A stretch of 64,000 nucleotides of DNA from Saprospiraceae bacterium (GTDB taxonomy: Bacteria > Bacteroidota > Bacteroidia > Chitinophagales > Saprospiraceae): contig JAHDFP010000010.1 in the NCBI GenBank assembly GCA_020628095.1, forward strand, positions 1 to 64,000. The letters are read 5' to 3'. The notes beneath the pieces are model-generated. The model saw nothing but the letters and a program-made list of their open reading frames with translations. It made no database searches and was not told where the DNA came from. Shown here piece after piece: positions 40,720 to 48,286 of this stretch; position 1 is the first letter of the stretch, and each line of letters begins with the position of its first letter. The translations under genes and the position numbers were made by a program.

Positions 40720-43050
40720 TTATCTCACGTAAAAACTAAAATGTTTGGGCTTCTCCTTCGACAAGTAACAGATGTAAGTCCCTTTTTGTAGTTCATCAAT
40801 ATTTATCTCAGACATACCATTTTTCATTTTAGCTTGCATAACAAGCTGTCCTTGGATATTAAAAATGAATAAGTCTGCATCTTCTTCATGATCGGAAATA
40901 ACATTTAGATGTTGACCGGCTTTTACAGGATTGGGATATACTAATAATTCGGAGCGATCATCTATATGGACAGCGCGGACATCGGAGAAAAACTCTTCTC
41001 CGTTATAGTCCACTTGTTTGAGCCTGTAATAGGAGGTGCCTGATAATGGATTGTTGTCTGTAATGGAATAATGTCTGAACGATTGGCTAGTACCTGCACC
41101 TTCTATTCTTTTGATATCTGTCCATGATTTATTGTCCTGACTTCTTTGTACGACATAGTATTGATTATTATTTTCTGATGCCGTGGACCAAGAGATGTGT
41201 ACATGATCATCTTCATTATTGCGCACGATAAAATCCAGTAGGTCTATCTCCAGCGTCGTACCATCTATAAACCCATTAAATGCAAGGCTGACCACGCCAT
41301 AGCATATTCCCAATCCGTCAATATCTTGTTGCAGCTCGTTTCTTATGACCGTATTAGTTTCTGCATGATACTGTATGGTGATGTTATCTATTTTTTGTTT
41401 GGCCCAGATTTTTGGTAGAAATGATTTTTCTATAACATTATCTGCTGTAAGCTCTATAGGAAATTCGTAATTGACATCCAGATTATAGGCTTGCCCCTCT
41501 AGTCGCATAATGACGGTCTGTGCTGAATCATACCTGCCAGAGACTATCAGTTGCTCTCCTTTGTAGAGATTAGGTAATCTATCCAGAGAGGGATAAGTCT
41601 CGTAGATCACTCCCGCTGGTTCCAGAGACATATCTATGTTAACAAGTACGGGGTTGTTTATCTTGAGAAAAAATTCGGTGATCTTAAGTTGTAGCTCTTC
41701 GTTATCTAAAAATTGCACCAGACCAGAGTTGTTAAGTGCTAATAGGGTCAACAACGTTTTATCCACATCTTGTCCTATACCGAAAGTAAATAAGAATATG
41801 TTGGTCTCTGAGGACTGTACTTGGTCCTCCACGGCTGATAGTATATCCTGAGTGTTGCGTAAGCCAGAAGTGGCTTGTCCATCTGTAAAGAAAATAATAA
41901 TGTTGGCTCTGTCGTCCTGAGTAGAATCGAATTGAGAGATTGCTTCACTTAGTGATCCAGATATATTAGTACTGCCAGTAGCAGGTATATTGGAGATATA
42001 ATGTAATGCTGTGCTCTTGTTCTGTTCGTTAACATCTTGATGCTCCGCAAACAAGCTATTGACACCCGACGAAAAGCTAATGATATTAAATCTATCACCT
42101 TCGTTAAGATTATTGACGATGAAACTTGCTGCTTCTCTAGCCTGTATTATCTTTCGGCCAGCCATACTTCCTGATTGATCAATTATAAGTGTAAAGTTTT
42201 TTTCTATGACATCGACCTGATCATTGGCTTCGGGTTCTATAATCATAGAGACGTATCCACTGCCGTTATTATCACAAGTATAAAGACTATCGGGCAGCAT
42301 CGTGCTTAATGTTGTAATGCCAAGATTATCCGACAATAGGCCATAATTCAAAGTGAAATCTTTCTCAAGTCTTACGAATCGTTCTTCGAAAGAAATAACT
42401 GCTTGGCTAGTATCACTGGTAATAGTCGACTGAGCAAAATTGGTTTCGATATTGTCTAGGTTACGATCCGTAGTTAGGACGATATTCATATAAGAAAGCT
42501 CTGGAGCCTCAAACTGAATGGGACTATAATCATAAGGATAATGAAACGAGACTTGTCCAAAGGAGTAGGGTAGTAGCTGGACATAAGTCATCTCCATAGT
42601 TATGCGCGAGCCAGTACTTATAGTGTCTGCCGGCTCAAAATACAGGCCACTTGCTCCTATGTAGTCGCTTATACTATTAGAAGAGATAGTTCCTGACCCT
42701 GTAGATGTCTGAGGTATGCTAGTGTTCTGTGTGCTCTCATCTACGATGGCTTCTTTCCAGTCATTATCATCTATTTTCCATCTCAGTCTTATCGGATTAG
42801 CATCTGCGGATAATGGGAATCCATATTTGATAATAGCCTCCTCGCCAGTACGATTAAGAAATACTTGCTCTGAACGGACTATGGCGATCTGATTATCTAT
42901 CTGTACGTCTACATAGGTCTCACTTAATTCGAATAATTGTCCAGATTGCTTATTAAGAACGATACCATGTGCGTCACTATGATTATCTATGCAGATAATA
43001 AGAATAACGAGTACCAAAATAGATTTAAGTTTCGTTTTGAGCTCAACCAT
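40720..43050 (-). CDS. Secreted VIT-VWA protein with T9SS sorting domain
   Basis: A 776-residue protein: signal peptide (about 1-27); VIT domain (about 28-150; VDVQIDNQIAIVRSEQVF, EAIIKYGFPLSADANPI); a spacer; a von Willebrand A domain (about 285-450) with the metal-binding MIDAS motif D291-x-S293-x-S295; a second beta-rich region; a fibronectin-like segment (HISWSTASENNNQYYVVQRS); and a C-terminal T9SS domain (LLVYPNPVKAGQHLNVIS through KGTYICYL). VIT-VWA proteins bind other proteins through the metal site. It lies 77 bases beyond the TonB-like gene on the same strand. Confidence 0.85.
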   Translation of the reverse strand: MVELKTKLKSILVLVILIICIDNHSDAHGIVLNKQSGQLFELSETYVDVQIDNQIAIVRSEQVFLNRTGEEAIIKYGFPLSADANPIRLRWKIDDNDWKEAIVDESTQNTSIPQTSTGSGTISSNSISDYIGASGLYFEPADTISTGSRITMEMTYVQLLPYSFGQVSFHYPYDYSPIQFEAPELSYMNIVLTTDRNLDNIETNFAQSTITSDTSQAVISFEERFVRLEKDFTLNYGLLSDNLGITTLSTMLPDSLYTCDNNGSGYVSMIIEPEANDQVDVIEKNFTLIIDQSGSMAGRKIIQAREAASFIVNNLNEGDRFNIISFSSGVNSLFAEHQDVNEQNKSTALHYISNIPATGSTNISGSLSEAISQFDSTQDDRANIIIFFTDGQATSGLRNTQDILSAVEDQVQSSETNIFLFTFGIGQDVDKTLLTLLALNNSGLVQFLDNEELQLKITEFFLKINNPVLVNIDMSLEPAGVIYETYPSLDRLPNLYKGEQLIVSGRYDSAQTVIMRLEGQAYNLDVNYEFPIELTADNVIEKSFLPKIWAKQKIDNITIQYHAETNTVIRNELQQDIDGLGICYGVVSLAFNGFIDGTTLEIDLLDFIVRNNEDDHVHISWSTASENNNQYYVVQRSQDNKSWTDIKRIEGAGTSQSFRHYSITDNNPLSGTSYYRLKQVDYNGEEFFSDVRAVHIDDRSELLVYPNPVKAGQHLNVISDHEEDADLFIFNIQGQLVMQAKMKNGMSEINIDELQKGTYICYLSKEKPKHFSFYVR

Positions 43051-43070
43051 TTCATTAGATTAATAGATAT

Positions 43071-43116
43071 AATAGACTACTCAGTGCATTCTAGGAATAC
43101 ACCAAAGCAGTCTATT
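43071..43116 (-). terminator. Possible terminator after the TonB-like gene
   Basis: Eight-base arms aatagact (43071-43078) and agtctatt (43109-43116) flank a 30-base loop just below the stop of the TonB-like gene. The loop is long and no T-run is clear, so support is weak. Confidence 0.2.
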
Positions 43117-43127
43117 TATCAAAGTCA

Positions 43128-44423
43128 TTAGAATCTCAGAGTGTAGTACAGTTCCACTTTCTGACTACCTCTAAATTTTTCTTCAAAAACGGCTCGTCTT
43201 ATGAGATTTTCTATCTCATTTTGACATTGTTCATTCACGGTGGTGATGTAATCGATTAGGTCTAAATTTCCGCTTTCATTTATTACTATGCGGAGTTGTA
43301 GTTTTTTGTGACCAGACCTCTGATTTCTGCATATATTCCAACTATTGACAAAGGTTTTGTCCAGTATTTCTGTGTAGTCTCTTTTTAGTTCTGACTGATT
43401 CATGGTCTCCTGTAGGAGTAATGGAGGTTCAGAAAAATCACTTTGAGCTTTTGATAATTCAAAGTCTAATTGGGGTTGTAGAGATTTCATTTCTGAGGTG
43501 TACCCTGCATAACTGACTTTGGCCTTTTGATCCATGTCTACGACATCCATAGAGTAAGATCCATCTGATAAGGTCATCGACGTATCCTTATCTTTATCGG
43601 TTATGACATAAGCATTTTTGATAGGTAGTCCGTCTAGGTCTTTGACATAGCCTCGTATAATATTGGACTTATTAGAGGTCGTTGAGGCTAGGGCATCATT
43701 GCTGATCGCGACACCATCTAGGACGAGTGCCTCACTTTCAGTTAGGTTGGATTTTTTTGCCCTGAAGGACTTTTCTTGTGTAATGCGTGTATTAGCTGCA
43801 GGTGCGTTTGCAGTTTCGTACTCTGCAATTTCTGTCGACTCAGTTTCTTCCTCTACCCTTGCTGGTAGATTTTCTAGGTTATTACTTTTTTCTTCTTGAT
43901 AAGAAGCGGAAGGACTTCTTTCAGATTCACTTTCTGTATATGTATTTTCTGATTCTCTATTCTGGTTTAACCAAGACTTATTATCGGATGCTGCCTTATT
44001 AGATACCGTTTGCGTACGAGTTTTTCCCTCCTCTATAGATTGATCTTCAGCATCTTTTAGGACCTCTTGTTTGGCAATAGTTTTTTCATTAGCAACATTT
44101 TCTTTTTGTGCCATATCTTGATGACTGGGCATAAGGCTACTGGATTGAGTTTGCATTAGCCAAAATGATACGCCCAGCAGTATAGCTAAGCTAGCTGCAA
44201 TGGATAAGGGTCTCCATAGCTTGATTGTTTTTGCTCTTAATTTTTGGTTGTGACTAGGGGTGAGGTTAGGTTTTTCTACAGCGTAATTATAATAACCCTC
44301 TAGCGCATCTGCCAAGAATGGATCATCCAAACTTGCTCGATCAAGCTGCCATTTTTCTTGCTCTGTGATAGTGCCATCATCTAATTTTTTGAGCAATAAA
44401 TGATATGTACGATCGGGGGACAT
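43128..44423 (-). CDS. Anti-sigma-like membrane protein with carboxypeptidase-regulatory fold and TonB-like C-terminus
   Basis: A 431-residue protein. Residues 1-60 are a soluble helical region resembling the start of anti-sigma factors (MSPDRTYHLLLKKLDDGTIT, LADALEGYYNY). A single membrane helix is at about 73-91. Residues 95-235 are a low-complexity, charged and Glu-rich linker. About 250-315 holds a CarboxypepD_reg-like fold (IIRGYVKDLDGLPIKNAYV, LSDGSYSMDV). The C-terminus (350-431) is a TonB/AgmX-like domain (LQLRIVINESGNLDLIDY). The start ATG at 44423 overlaps the stop of the sigma gene by one base (TAATG). It may sense an envelope signal and hold the sigma factor; inference. Confidence 0.75.
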   Translation of the reverse strand: MSPDRTYHLLLKKLDDGTITEQEKWQLDRASLDDPFLADALEGYYNYAVEKPNLTPSHNQKLRAKTIKLWRPLSIAASLAILLGVSFWLMQTQSSSLMPSHQDMAQKENVANEKTIAKQEVLKDAEDQSIEEGKTRTQTVSNKAASDNKSWLNQNRESENTYTESESERSPSASYQEEKSNNLENLPARVEEETESTEIAEYETANAPAANTRITQEKSFRAKKSNLTESEALVLDGVAISNDALASTTSNKSNIIRGYVKDLDGLPIKNAYVITDKDKDTSMTLSDGSYSMDVVDMDQKAKVSYAGYTSEMKSLQPQLDFELSKAQSDFSEPPLLLQETMNQSELKRDYTEILDKTFVNSWNICRNQRSGHKKLQLRIVINESGNLDLIDYITTVNEQCQNEIENLIRRAVFEEKFRGSQKVELYYTLRF

Positions 44424-44965
44424 TATTTTTCTATACAATTTTTAAGCATACGACGACCATTTTGTATTCTGGATCTGACTCTGTTCCAGCTTATTTTTTG
44501 CTCTTCCGCAATCATATCGTAGCTTTTATTTTTGAAATAAAACTCATCTATACAAGTCTTTTGTTCTTCGGTTAGTTTGCCAATACAATCTTGTAGTTTA
44601 TCATATAACTCTTCTTCTATACTATCAGGATGGAAAATATCACTAGAATACATATCGAAAGCTATATTTTCTTTTTCTATCTGCCTTTTTTCTTTTCTGA
44701 GCAGATCAAGGCAATAATTTTTGCTTACCACATATAACCAAGGCTTGAAGTCTTCTACTTTATTGGTTTTTAGTTTTTTGCAGAGTAATTCGTAGATGGA
44801 CATGACGGCGTCCTTAGATTTTTCTTGATCTTTTAGATATTTCAGACAGACTCCACGTACTAGGGGCATATAGGATTGGTACAGTTCTGCTAACGCAGTT
44901 TGATCCTGATTATCCACATATTGCTTGATGGCCTCATGCGCTCGTATGTTCTTTTCTTTTTCCAA
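44423..44965 (-). CDS. ECF sigma-70 factor
   Basis: A 180-residue sigma factor of ECF type. Region 2 (about 25-90) includes YQSYMPLVRGVCLKYLKDQE and DFKPWLYVVSKNYCLDLLRKE; region 4 (about 115-175) includes LTEEQKTCIDEFYFKNKSYD and SWNRVRSRIQNGRRMLKN, the DNA-contacting helix-turn-helix. The only in-frame start before the domain is TTG at 44965; no ATG precedes it. It is coupled to the membrane-anchored gene downstream and divergent from the VWA gene at 45071, an arrangement suited to autoregulation. Confidence 0.88.
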   Translation of the reverse strand: MEKEKNIRAHEAIKQYVDNQDQTALAELYQSYMPLVRGVCLKYLKDQEKSKDAVMSIYELLCKKLKTNKVEDFKPWLYVVSKNYCLDLLRKEKRQIEKENIAFDMYSSDIFHPDSIEEELYDKLQDCIGKLTEEQKTCIDEFYFKNKSYDMIAEEQKISWNRVRSRIQNGRRMLKNCIEK

Positions 44966-45070
44966 TCTTATACTAATCTCATAAAAAAATTACACTCATT
45001 TATGTAATCCACCTCATAGATGCATCATACAGATAAATTATCTCAATTCATTTATATAAATAATCATTCT

Positions 45071-46870
45071 ATGAAAACTTATTTGCTATCTCTCTTATTT
45101 GGCTTCACAACTTTAATATCTACTCAAGAAAAATCTATTGCTGTCACAGGCGTTGTGGTTGACGACAGTGGCCTCCCGCTAATAGGGGCTAACGTCGTTA
45201 TCAAGGGCACAGCGAAAGGAACGACCACGGACATTGATGGGATATTTTCTATAAGTGCATCTGATCTCGATGATGTACTAATCATCTCATACATTGGTTA
45301 TGAAACAAAAGAAATAAGCCTAGAAGAATCAAAAACACATTATAAGATGGTGATGAAGGAAACCAAGGTAATGGAAGAATGTCTTGTTATCTGTGGCGCA
45401 AGTAAAAAAACGAGACGCCGAGCTAAAAGAAATAAAAAGCGTACCATGGTGATGGATGGCGTACCTCTACGTGTCAAAAGACCTTCTAGCTCATCAGCGA
45501 CCATGTTGGCTAATTTCAGGGCGATATCGTCTGATGGGATGACGCCTTCTTTTGTAGAGAGCTACGAGATGCCAGACGCAGGACAGATCACAGCAGGAGA
45601 ATGGAACGACTTAAATAATTGGGAAGATTGGAAATCCTTGATAGCCCAACCTAACTATAAGTCACACCAAGAACACTGGGGTATATATCCACGGAGCAGG
45701 TTTTCTGTATTCGCTACGACGGATAATAATTATCCTCTCGTCAATGCTCAAGCCACATTATGGAGTAAAGATGGCACGGCAATATGGCAAACATACACGG
45801 ACCAATCAGGTAAAGCAGAGTTATGGAATGGAATAGATAATCAGCTAGCCAACATAGAAAAAATAACAATCCAAAAAGATGGTAATACATTTACTGTAGA
45901 TAAACCAAAGTCATCAGATGATGGGACTAATCATATCAAGGTTGCCCTTCCTTGCCAATCCTATAATGAGGTGGAGATAATGTTTGTCGTAGATGCCACA
46001 GGGTCTATGGGTGACGAAATTTCTTTTCTAAGATCAGAGTTGAGCGATGTCATAGATCGAGTTAAGGCTATCGACGATCAGATGGATTATCGGATGGGAG
46101 CCGTGTTCTATAAAGACACCAAAGATGATTATCTGACTCAAGAGACTCCGCTGAGTAGTGACATAGATAAGACTATAGATTTTATAAAGAAAACAACTTA
46201 TGGTGGTGGTGGCGATTTTCCAGAAGCTGTAGACGCGGCACTGGACAAAGCTCTTAATCAAGACTGGAATCCTGAGTCACTATCACGTATTATATTTCTA
46301 CTCCTCGATGCACCCCCTCATGATGACCAAAAGACAAAAGAACGTATCAGCAGACAGATGAGAGAAGCGGCTGCTAAGGGAATCAAAATAGTACCCATCA
46401 CGGCCAGCGGTATCGATCGACCAACAGAATTTTTGATGAAATTCTTATCTATTGCGACGAATAGCACTTATGTATTCATCACAGATCATAGTGGGATTGG
46501 CTCACCACACCTTGACCCAGTGGTAGAAGATTACGAAGTAGAAAAACTTAATGATCTATTAGTCCGAGTGATATCCAGTTATAGCATACAGGAAAATTGT
46601 ACTAAGTCGTCAGATGCAATTATATCCGATCTAAATATGAAGGTCTATCCTAATCCAGCTTCGCAATTTGTGAATATTGACCTTGATACACAAGTGGATA
46701 AGATTGTATTGCGATCTGCCTCTGGTAAAATTGTACTTTCTCTGGATGACCCTAAGAAAGGAACTAATACGATGAGACTAGATAATCTAGTGGGTGGAAT
46801 GTATATTCTTTCCGTTATAAAAGATGATAAGCCGATACAGACTAAATCTCTCATCGTTTTAGATAAGTAA
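45071..46870 (+). CDS. Secreted CarboxypepD_reg-VWA protein with T9SS sorting domain
   Basis: A 599-residue protein: signal peptide (about 1-22); a carboxypeptidase-regulatory-like fold (25-95; GVVVDDSGLPLIGANVVIKG, SYIGYETKEISL); a basic patch (SKKTRRRAKRNKKR) near 110-125; a von Willebrand A domain (about 300-500) with MIDAS D308-x-T-x-S in VDATGSMGDE; and a C-terminal T9SS domain (MKVYPNPASQFVNIDLDTQ through GGMYILSV). I chose ATG 45071 over the earlier 45020 because it starts the signal peptide. It is divergent from the ECF gene and is a likely target of it; inference. Confidence 0.82.
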   Translation: MKTYLLSLLFGFTTLISTQEKSIAVTGVVVDDSGLPLIGANVVIKGTAKGTTTDIDGIFSISASDLDDVLIISYIGYETKEISLEESKTHYKMVMKETKVMEECLVICGASKKTRRRAKRNKKRTMVMDGVPLRVKRPSSSSATMLANFRAISSDGMTPSFVESYEMPDAGQITAGEWNDLNNWEDWKSLIAQPNYKSHQEHWGIYPRSRFSVFATTDNNYPLVNAQATLWSKDGTAIWQTYTDQSGKAELWNGIDNQLANIEKITIQKDGNTFTVDKPKSSDDGTNHIKVALPCQSYNEVEIMFVVDATGSMGDEISFLRSELSDVIDRVKAIDDQMDYRMGAVFYKDTKDDYLTQETPLSSDIDKTIDFIKKTTYGGGGDFPEAVDAALDKALNQDWNPESLSRIIFLLLDAPPHDDQKTKERISRQMREAAAKGIKIVPITASGIDRPTEFLMKFLSIATNSTYVFITDHSGIGSPHLDPVVEDYEVEKLNDLLVRVISSYSIQENCTKSSDAIISDLNMKVYPNPASQFVNIDLDTQVDKIVLRSASGKIVLSLDDPKKGTNTMRLDNLVGGMYILSVIKDDKPIQTKSLIVLDK

Positions 46871-46983
46871 GATCTGAGGTATAGTTTACTTGGAACTAGT
46901 CAGAAGTATTATAGAGCGAGGAGGATGACGATTCATATTTGATAATTCAGTATTTTGCTGATATCAATAAATCAGCAAAAAAT

Positions 46984-48286
46984 ATGAAATTCATTTTCCT
47001 CGCTTTGTCTGCTATTATGATGGCAGTAAGCGTCAGTGGTCAATCAAAATATATAGAACAAGTTACTCAGCACGCAGAGAGTTACGAGGCTGAGGTTATC
47101 GAGATAAGAAGAGTATTTCACCAGTATCCGGAGTTGTCTAACCGAGAATATGAGACGGCCCAGCGTATCGCGGATATAATGAAAAAGATGGGCATGAAAG
47201 TAGAGACGGGCGTCGCAAAAACGGGCGTGATCGCGGTCCTGGACTCTGGCAAGCCTGGTCCCACAATTGGCCTCCGAGCAGATATAGATGGACTTCCTGT
47301 GACAGAGCGTACACCAGTTCCATTTGCGTCTAAAGAAAAGACGGAGTATTTGGGTCAAGAGGTCGGTGTGATGCATGCCTGTGGTCATGATACGCATATT
47401 GCAATGCTTATAGGAGCAGCCAAAGTCTTATCCAAAATGAAGTCTCAGCTCAAAGGGAAAGTCGTATTTATATTCCAGCCAGCCGAGGAAGGTGCACCTC
47501 CAGGAGAGGAAGGGGGTGCAGAACTCATGGTAAAAGAAGGACTGATGGAAAAGTATGGGATAGATGTCGTCTTTGGACAACACATAAGCTCTACGACAGA
47601 AGTCGGAAAAATCAACTATAGAGTAGGAGGTATTATGGCGGCCTCTAATAGATTTACGATCAAGGTAAAAGGCGCCCAGACGCACGGATCAAGACCATGG
47701 GCGGGTATAGACCCCGTTACCGTTAGTGCGCAGATAATATTGGGCCTACAGACGATCGTCAGTCGTCAGATGGAACTAACTAAAAATGCCGCAGTCATTA
47801 CCATAGGAAAGATCAATGCAGGGACGAGGAATAATAGTTATACCAGAGGAGGTAGAGATGATAGGCACAATAAGGACTTTGGACAGAGATATGCAGAAAG
47901 ATATACACGAGAGAATACACAAAACAGCGACCAATATTGCAGAGGCGTCAGGCGCGGTCGCGGAGGTGACCATCGAGAAAGGATACCCAGTTACATACAA
48001 TGATCCAGAACTTACAAGAGATATGATCGGGAGTCTCTACGCTGCCGCTGGAGAAGATAATGTGAGGGTAACAGCAGCGGTTACTGGCGCGGAGGATTTC
48101 TCTTATTTTGCACAAGAGGTGCCTGGATTATATTATTTCGTCGGTGGAAAACCGAAACCTCAGGAGGGAAAAGAACAGAAAGCGGCACCTCATCACACAC
48201 CTGATTTTTTTATAGACGAATCTGGAATGATAACAGGCGTCAAGGCCCTTTCGCATTTGACATTAGATTACATGGATAAAAATTGA
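46984..48286 (+). pseudogene. M20 amidohydrolase gene with one frameshift
   Basis: The first part (from ATG 46984) encodes a signal peptide (MKFIFLALSAIMMAVSVSGQ) and most of the catalytic domain of an N-acyl amino-acid amidohydrolase: HACGHDTHIAMLIGAAKVL, FQPAEEGAPPG and the dimerisation domain. Near 47836 the frame changes: IPEEVEMIGTIRTLD and the rest, including HHTPDFFID, continue in the next frame to 48286. Removing one base makes 1302 bases and a normal 433-residue protein with all metal ligands. It may be a recent mutation or a sequencing error. The S37 peptidase gene starts two bases after the stop. Confidence 0.8.

Follow-up and report, generated by a model that had tools for sequence, protein, structure and literature searches.

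In the FecI-FecR-FecA system, an ECF sigma factor is combined with an anti-sigma factor that has a periplasmic C-terminal part and with outer-membrane TonB-type coupling parts (PMC9249621). At the N-terminus of Bt1763, a SusC-type TonB-dependent transporter, an experimentally tested TonB box, VDEVVV, follows the N-terminal extension (NTE) (PMC7782687). Inner-membrane von Willebrand A (VWA) "force transducers," including those of Bacteroidetes, tie VWA folds to TonB/TolA-like envelope architectures; they resemble YfbK, and a single protein carries the VWA domain in place of the TonB domain (PMC12204202). Finally, in the PorA-PorXY-SigP route of Porphyromonas gingivalis, a surface protein with a T9SS tail feeds an ECF sigma factor (PMC7712824).

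The locus analyzed here, which lies in a 64,000-nucleotide stretch of Saprospiraceae DNA (hereinafter, the window), shares elements with each of these systems and matches none of them. On balance, we lean toward the view that it represents a diverged version of an ECF sigma/anti-sigma cassette of Bacteroidota in which contact of a TonB-like anti-sigma factor with a surface partner would free the sigma factor. In contrast to FecI-FecR-FecA, no FecR domain was found in the cassette, no TonB-dependent receptor was detected among the neighboring proteins scanned, the anti-sigma factor itself bears the NTE and TonB-like domains, and a barrel-less VWA protein is the candidate partner. Unlike the NTE of SusC-type transporters, that of the cassette is fused to an anti-sigma factor or a VWA protein; unlike TonB itself, the TonB-like domain sits on an anti-sigma N-domain. 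The VWA and TonB-like domains belong to two separate, divergently encoded proteins, as opposed to the single protein described for the force transducers (PMC12204202), and the Porphyromonas route, as described in PMC7712824, runs through a two-component system rather than an adjacent anti-sigma factor. Neither an anti-sigma factor with NTE and TonB-like domains nor the sigma-VWA arrangement was found in the literature searched, in which a term search of one ECF review (PMC8103513) returned neither Bacteroidetes nor TonB; the 2021 ECF reclassification may mention either.

The sigma/anti-sigma pair and its divergent VWA neighbor

The sigma factor gene (44423..44965, minus strand, TTG start, 180 aa) encodes a short protein with sigma-2 and sigma-4 domains (Sigma70_r2 and r4_2, above the Pfam cut-offs) that also scores above the cut-off of the sigma70-ECF superfamily model TIGR02937 and adjoins its cognate anti-sigma gene, all features of ECF sigma factors. 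Its identity to ten relatives is 39-56%, and its score against the Bacteroides sigma-70 subfamily model TIGR02985 (75.6 bits) is below the cut-off of 126.4. The anti-sigma gene (43128..44423, minus strand, 431 aa) begins with an ATG at 44423 that uses the last base of the sigma stop codon (TAATG), so that the one-base overlap reported in the first-pass annotation is correct. On the opposite strand, divergent from the sigma gene, lies a gene for a secreted protein (45020..46870, plus strand) with a SusC-type NTE (CarbD), a VWA domain and a T9SS tail, all above the Pfam cut-offs; codon 18 opens a signal-peptide-like stretch, MKTYLLSLL, recognized by eye, and the true start is probably at 45071. 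Downstream of the anti-sigma gene, on the minus strand, a VIT-VWA gene (40720..43050) also encodes a VWA protein with a T9SS tail. In both VWA proteins the type A T9SS sorting domain is C-terminal and above the cut-off, and MIDAS-like DxSGS/DxTGS motifs are seen by eye; GldM, the T9SS component searched for, is above the cut-off in the same genome. The four genes are borne out as originally described, including the placement, in the window, of two secreted VWA proteins on the flanks of the sigma/anti-sigma pair.

In the Bacteroidota loci examined, the pair is constant: the anti-sigma gene directly follows the sigma gene in 80/80 named loci and in all 24 further loci (L257, in the further set, was a duplicate), with the pair at L078, L083 and L259 recognized by six-frame check and included in the neighborhood counts. 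A divergent VWA gene is present at 41 of the 80 loci (L077 counted as positive) and at 8/24 further loci, including a YfbK at L259 found by six-frame check; none was found at 39/80, 10 of which have less than 5 kb of upstream sequence, nor at 16/24. The VWA gene beside the sigma/anti-sigma pair is common but optional.

The usual neighbor is of the YfbK type (PF12450 + VWA + PF12034), which is divergent from the sigma gene in 39/80 loci. Locus L097, from Mucilaginibacter lappiensis ATCC BAA-1855, combines the sigma and anti-sigma genes with a divergent YfbK and the promoter motif described below. All tallied ORFs (39 YfbK and 4 VWA4, with L076 counted as two fragments) are upstream and divergent. 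Among the 41 divergent proteins, Pfam detects VWA in all, CarbD in 37 and YfbK_C in 36, and a TonB-box motif is present in 20 of the 41 (0.3 expected). By domain content, then, the divergent VWA proteins share the receptor-type extension of the anti-sigma factor, about half of them together with a TonB-box motif. Neither PF12450 nor PF12034 was found in the window VWA protein, and PF12034 has no match anywhere in its genome; as judged from its domains, the window carries a T9SS-tailed, VWA_4-type substitute for the YfbK-type protein. Only part of the proposed four-gene module is conserved: the sigma/anti-sigma pair with a divergent VWA gene recurs, whereas the VIT-VWA gene was not found to recur with it, and the window holds a diverged copy.

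That the VWA neighbor reflects chance or simple linkage without a functional tie is, in our estimate, highly improbable. VWA4-type genes in relatives are mostly unlinked (of 18 further VWA4 loci, some cut by contig ends, none lies beside this sigma gene, and two others lie near it), only 3/20 further YfbK loci adjoin this sigma gene, and VWA genes are missing from many loci as noted above; against this, YfbK_C has at most five matches in any of 60 genomes and is nevertheless found beside the sigma gene at nearly half of the named loci, always in the same orientation and across several families.

TonB-system-like parts in the anti-sigma factor

The AlphaFold model of the window anti-sigma factor comprises a helical, cytoplasmic N-domain, a single hydrophobic transmembrane helix (residues 71-94), a long disordered linker, a transthyretin/CarbD domain (residues 254-327; 43443..43664, minus strand; block means of 92-98 over residues 251-320) and a C-terminal domain of a-b-b-a-b topology (residues 343-431; 43131..43397, minus strand). 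The first-pass description of an anti-sigma N-terminus joined to a carboxypeptidase-regulatory fold and a TonB-like C-terminus agrees with these domains. Searched directly, the window protein finds little backing in Pfam (CarbD at 25.9 bits, below the cut-off of 32.3; no TonB_C match at E ≤ 0.01); the relatives supply it, with CarbD (PF13620) in 63 and TonB_C in 48 of the 79 anti-sigma members at the same threshold. The 15 Pfam families found in these members at E ≤ 0.01 do not include FecR. A single member gave a DUF3379 match (E 0.006), too weak to build on, and DUF3379 is named nowhere in the literature searched.

For the CarbD domain, the best PDB match is a SusC NTE (9hfj; Z 13.8, 78 aligned residues, rmsd 1.6), and a fold search with the whole window model returned a list filled almost solely by CarbD. 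The C-terminal domain was traced through the family: residues 354-431 are matched by a profile of the other 78 members (25.7 bits), hhalign links six close members to the rest with a probability of 89 over 44 columns, and a 20-member profile that includes the window protein retrieves TonB from the PDB as the first 15 of 23 matches at E ≤ 1 (best E 1e-5). Consistent with this, the C-terminal domain of a Mucilaginibacter member (L097 model) aligns to TonB 5lw8 with Z 9.0 over 83 residues (rmsd 2.9). A TonB-box motif is present in 21/79 anti-sigma factors, against 0.2 expected from shuffles, and in many members the L-x-E-VVV sequence that follows the NTE resembles the VDEVVV of Bt1763 (PMC7782687); the motif is absent from both the anti-sigma factor and the CarbD-VWA protein of the window. 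Some relatives of the anti-sigma factor also keep receptor-plug scraps. Taken together, the sequence and model comparisons suggest that the periplasmic part looks assembled from pieces resembling those of TonB systems, namely a SusC-type NTE, sometimes a TonB box, and a TonB-like C-terminal domain.

Under the cassette model that we favor, the anti-sigma factor would hold the sigma factor in the resting cell, and its TonB-like domain would reach an outer-membrane partner that has a TonB box or NTE, for which the divergent VWA protein and a TonB-dependent transporter are the likeliest candidates. The sigma factor could then be freed by this contact, by tension or by competition with the true TonB. 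A narrower version, in which the anti-sigma factor is a dedicated TonB whose tip plugs into the TonB box of a barrel-less VWA "receptor" encoded by the divergent gene, so that binding or mechanical load at the surface leads to sigma release, strikes us as rather unlikely. Docking in cis, with the TonB box resting on the TonB-like domain, was not seen: in the one monomer model that carries it, the box is disordered and undocked. Somewhat better placed, though still doubtful, is the view that the anti-sigma factor keeps its NTE and TonB-like domains as inherited scaffolding; it would then be an inhibitor that senses a ligand or stress and undergoes regulated proteolytic cleavage without making TonB-type contacts. 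The rapid evolution of the protein (16-28% identity between the window member and eleven aligned relatives) and the lack of a strict TonB box in 58/79 members, that of the window included, are in line with such scaffolding, whereas the recognizable TonB_C domain in the majority of members and the TonB-box motifs, which greatly exceed the shuffled expectation in the anti-sigma and VWA proteins alike, argue against it. If the cassette model is correct, parts of TonB and its receptors have been reused as a transcription switch, and one inner-membrane protein is both a TonB-like transducer and an anti-sigma factor, which would provide a testable function for a widespread group of Bacteroidota proteins and the adjoining YfbK-type VWA proteins.

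A putative promoter motif upstream of the sigma gene

A putative ECF promoter, GATGCA-N12-ATTACATAA (45000..45026, minus strand, 27.7 bits), reads into the sigma gene. The motif occurs before the sigma gene in 48/78 regions, on which it was both found and scored, and in 0/390 shuffles; in the further set, which is small and from the same phylum, the counts are 7/23 regions and 1/460 shuffles. At L120, the upstream sequence is too short for a score, and L078, L083 and L259 (3.3, -5.7 and 18.5, respectively) are excluded from these counts and from the p-values below. The presence of a VWA gene tracks the sigma motif (36/42 vs 9/30, p=1.8e-6, with six VWA-negative loci with less than 2.5 kb upstream left out; in the further set, 6/7 vs 1/16, p=4.6e-4; kinship ignored in both). 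Freed sigma factor could raise its own operon through this motif, and the locus may be an autoregulated surface-signaling cassette with the anti-sigma factor as a TonB-like relay. In such a cassette we would cast the VWA protein as a sensor or a partner and not as an established sigma target.

The first-pass annotation had instead proposed an adhesion regulon in which both secreted VWA proteins are under direct control of the sigma factor, and had suggested a shared upstream motif as a check. That a divergent VWA gene recurs, and that its presence goes together with the promoter motif, fits the proposal, as do forward copies before the VWA genes of L048, L050 and L096 (3/43) and L273 (1/8 in the further set). 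The check fails in the window because the motif faces the sigma gene and neither VWA gene is preceded by it (-2.2 bits before CarbD-VWA and nothing above 9 directly before VIT-VWA); a site at 44629 (plus strand), inside the sigma gene and facing CarbD-VWA, fits a shorter pattern exactly, but the site scores only 6.9. With 40/43 and 7/8 VWA genes in the two sets lacking a forward copy, and with the VIT-VWA gene not seen beside the sigma gene elsewhere, we regard direct control of both proteins as unlikely.

Over the whole 4.2-Mb genome, GATGCA-N12-ATTACATA occurs exactly once, at the sigma promoter of the window. With up to two mismatches there are 47 sites, that exact one among them, against 27 for the reversed pattern; this excess is not taken as a regulon because the pattern with a spacer one base longer gives 58 against 48. 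Across 61 genomes of the family, the excess at up to one mismatch is small (197 sites vs 160 for the reversed pattern). A one-mismatch site between rplL and rpoB (L154, 17 bits) was taken as a chance occurrence because, among the 17 loci in which the rplL end could be located (30 fetched), only the window's own genome has it. Another one-mismatch site (L155) lies inside a long ORF. The other sites above 9 bits in the window (43771 and 45230, both on the minus strand, and three more) fall within the range of shuffled windows, in which the best score is 13.7. The motif offers a concrete means of defining the regulon in cultured strains.

The VIT-VWA gene

No VIT-VWA ORF above 300 bits is present in the flanks of the 78 sigma loci tallied. 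Conversely, this sigma gene was not found beside VIT-VWA orthologues at six loci in relatives, although at two of them (L251 and L254) the contig stops less than 1 kb away in the direction in which the sigma gene would be expected; the genome of L254 carries the pair on another contig. From this distribution, the VIT-VWA gene looks like a local neighbor of, or addition to, the cassette. Its inclusion in the sigma operon by read-through, as a local output, is a possibility that we entertain only tentatively: it is on the same strand, 77 bases after the anti-sigma gene, with no motif copy above 9 directly before it and no terminator of the scanned type in the gap, but the gap contains a strong hairpin (43068..43120, minus strand) that could mark a transcript boundary, and the adjacency is not seen in the relatives examined, within the limits set by the two truncated loci. 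The hairpin region (43045-43140) folds at -27.9 kcal/mol (z -4.64), and 0/200 shuffles are as stable.

In the VIT-VWA protein, the VWA domain and the T9SS tail are above the cut-offs, and VIT is just below (22.7 vs 26.5). The layout is that of the marine sortase-target VIT-VWA proteins (TIGR03788, E 2.6e-53); in contrast to these, the window protein has a T9SS tail and scores 181.4 bits against an equivalog cut-off of 551.65.

Organization and conservation of the sigma/anti-sigma module

The gene arrangement described in the first-pass annotation is seen in full in the window. The minus strand carries an ECF sigma gene (44423-44965, 180 residues), then an anti-sigma gene whose ATG at 44423 overlaps it by one base (TAATG), and next the gene for a VIT-VWA protein with a T9SS tail (40720-43050). 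Divergent from the sigma gene, on the plus strand, lies a gene (45020-46870) for a T9SS-tailed protein combining the carboxypeptidase-regulatory/transthyretin fold (PF13620, hereinafter CarbD) with a VWA domain. This last ORF opens at 45020, and because a signal-peptide-like stretch begins at codon 18, 45071 appears to be the more likely start. Given the presence of GldM in the genome, a T9SS in this organism is plausible. The adjacent M20 amidohydrolase (46939-48286, plus strand) is split into two overlapping frames (46939-48003 and 47816-48286), and its relative in locus L025 is a single frame; the split in the window reflects either a frameshift within the gene or faulty assembly.

A sigma-alignment search yielded the best 80 named Bacteroidota loci among the matches listed, with flanks of up to 10 kb. 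An anti-sigma gene follows the sigma gene in all 78 loci in which the sigma ORF was called, and the two loci initially dropped also possess it. A divergent VWA gene is located within 8 kb upstream in 41 of the 80; in 39 of these it is of the YfbK type (PF12450, VWA and PF12034), twice together with a gene of the window's VWA_4 type (VWA4), and in two it is VWA4 alone. Every VWA ORF of these two types tallied in this set is upstream and divergent. An evenly drawn sample of the phylum, with matches at E<=1e-45 in 22 of 198 genomes (own genome included), gave 25 loci, or 24 after removal of one duplicate, with an anti-sigma gene in 24/24 and a divergent VWA gene in 8/24. When the search was anchored on the VWA genes, with some loci cut by contig ends, the sigma gene of the pair stood next to the VWA gene at 3 of 20 additional YfbK loci, besides four already known, and at none of the 18 additional VWA4 loci. 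Thus, the sigma/anti-sigma pair is the core of the module and the VWA partner is a frequent, optional component, whereas VIT-VWA looks like a local addition. Of the proposed four-gene co-occurrence, the pair stands (80/80 and 24/24) and the divergent VWA gene stands in part, but VIT-VWA does not: no such ORF above 300 bits occurs in the flanks of the 78 loci tallied, where one 48-bit match (L096) was found. Nor was the sigma of the pair seen at six loci of VIT-VWA orthologues, although in two of the six the contig ends less than 1 kb away on the side that matters. Near one of the six orthologues lies another sigma gene, with only weak similarity (about 40 bits).

YfbK_C has no match in the window's genome (98.7% complete), and the T9SS-tailed VWA4 protein occupies the usual YfbK place. 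Among loci lacking a VWA gene, six (L043, L057, L070, L073, L084 and L106) have a divergent gene for a protein of 300-390 residues belonging to one linked group; that of L043, the same protein as the one in L025, combines a T9SS tail with two CarbD stretches, while others begin with a CHENW...CxxC motif. In one relative, an M14 carboxypeptidase of 2406 residues (L030:2260-9477, the same locus as L045), which has MAM and GEVED domains as well as a T9SS tail, is encoded between the sigma gene of the pair and the VWA4 gene.

Domain architecture of the anti-sigma and its partner

The N-terminal domain is the best conserved region of the anti-sigma (LDDPFLADALEGY). In the AlphaFold model (mean pLDDT 71.9, pTM 0.35), helices, among them a hydrophobic one at 71-94, are followed by a long disordered linker and by two confidently modelled domains, CarbD and a C-terminal domain of a-b-b-a-b topology. 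The best structural match of CarbD is the N-terminal extension (NTE) of a SusC transporter (9hfj; Z 13.8, rmsd 1.6, 78 aligned). Across 79 members, Pfam detects CarbD in 63 and TonB_C in 48; the C-terminal domain of the window protein is not recognized by Pfam and is matched by a profile of the other members with 25.7 bits. When the family profile of this domain (20 members, window included) was compared with PDB, TonB chains were the first fifteen of 23 matches (best E 1e-5), and the modelled domain of the family member at locus L097 matches three TonB structures with Z of 9.0 to 8.7.

TonB-box motifs of the L-x-E-VVV type are present in 21/79 anti-sigmas, mostly after CarbD, and in 20/41 divergent VWA proteins, against 0.2 and 0.3 in shuffled sequences; they are absent from the window proteins. 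Receptor-plug motifs occur in 6/79 and 11/41, with 0 in shuffles, and a second, IDG(V/I)-type plug motif in 4/79 (window included) and 2/41 (shuffles 0.1 and 0.3). In one study, the box of Bt1763 (VDEVVV) comes after the NTE, its deletion or mutation causes levan growth defects resembling those of a strain without SusD, and a role of the NTE in specificity for TonB homologues is proposed as a possibility (PMC7782687); another describes the NTE as implicated in TonB interaction (PMC12204202).

A putative sigma-directed promoter motif

Unbiased pair counting upstream of sigma in 78 regions, those of 77 loci plus that of the window, recovered GATG-N16-TACA and neighbouring pairs in up to 35 regions, against 0.4 expected. 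With a weight matrix (GATGCA-N12-ATTACATAA) trained on these regions, 48/78 of them and 0/390 shuffles exceed a score of 12, the window region reaching 27.7. Given this training, the phylum sample is the fair test, and there the motif is present in 7/23 regions against 1/460 shuffles, and before 3/212 other genes, one of them a YfbK gene. VWA presence and the motif are associated in both sets (36/42 vs 9/30, p 1.8e-6; 6/7 vs 1/16, p 4.6e-4; kinship ignored). Forward copies precede VWA genes in 3/43 and 1/8 cases, respectively. The anticipated shared upstream motif is not borne out in the window, where neither VWA gene is preceded by a forward copy; the exact sequence occurs just once in the genome, at the sigma promoter. 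A near-match directed at rpoB in the rplL-rpoB gap of the same genome (L154, 1497-1532; G000 contig C2) is probably due to chance, since the motif is missing from all 16 rplL ends that could be located among the relatives.

The gap between the anti-sigma and VIT-VWA genes contains a strong hairpin (43068-43120; -27.9 kcal/mol, z -4.64), so that read-through into VIT-VWA is uncertain. Long, with a 3-base loop and no clear T-run, this structure 3' of the anti-sigma gene is possibly a terminator of a type outside that scanned for.

A proposed signaling relay

Sequence comparison supports an ECF-type pair with a sigma-directed motif and an anti-sigma combining NTE and TonB-like domains, whose frequent divergent partner shares the receptor-type N-terminus. 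We propose that the TonB-like tip of the anti-sigma engages a partner with a TonB box or NTE at the outer membrane, the leading candidate being the divergent VWA protein; contact, or its loss, would release sigma, which would then boost expression of the operon it belongs to. The candidate VWA partner in the window has a T9SS tail, and no box motif is left; any contact there would therefore need NTE surfaces, which weakens the model for this locus itself.

Such a pair would work similarly to FecIRA-kind cell-surface signaling (PMC9249621), but no FecR domain is found in its anti-sigma. Among the literature matches listed, which do not cover the main ECF classification paper, we found no description of an anti-sigma with NTE and TonB-like domains. 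Force transduction has been proposed as the role of VWA proteins whose architecture is TonB-like (PMC12204202), and PorA-SigP is a precedent for a T9SS-tailed surface protein feeding an ECF sigma (PMC7712824).
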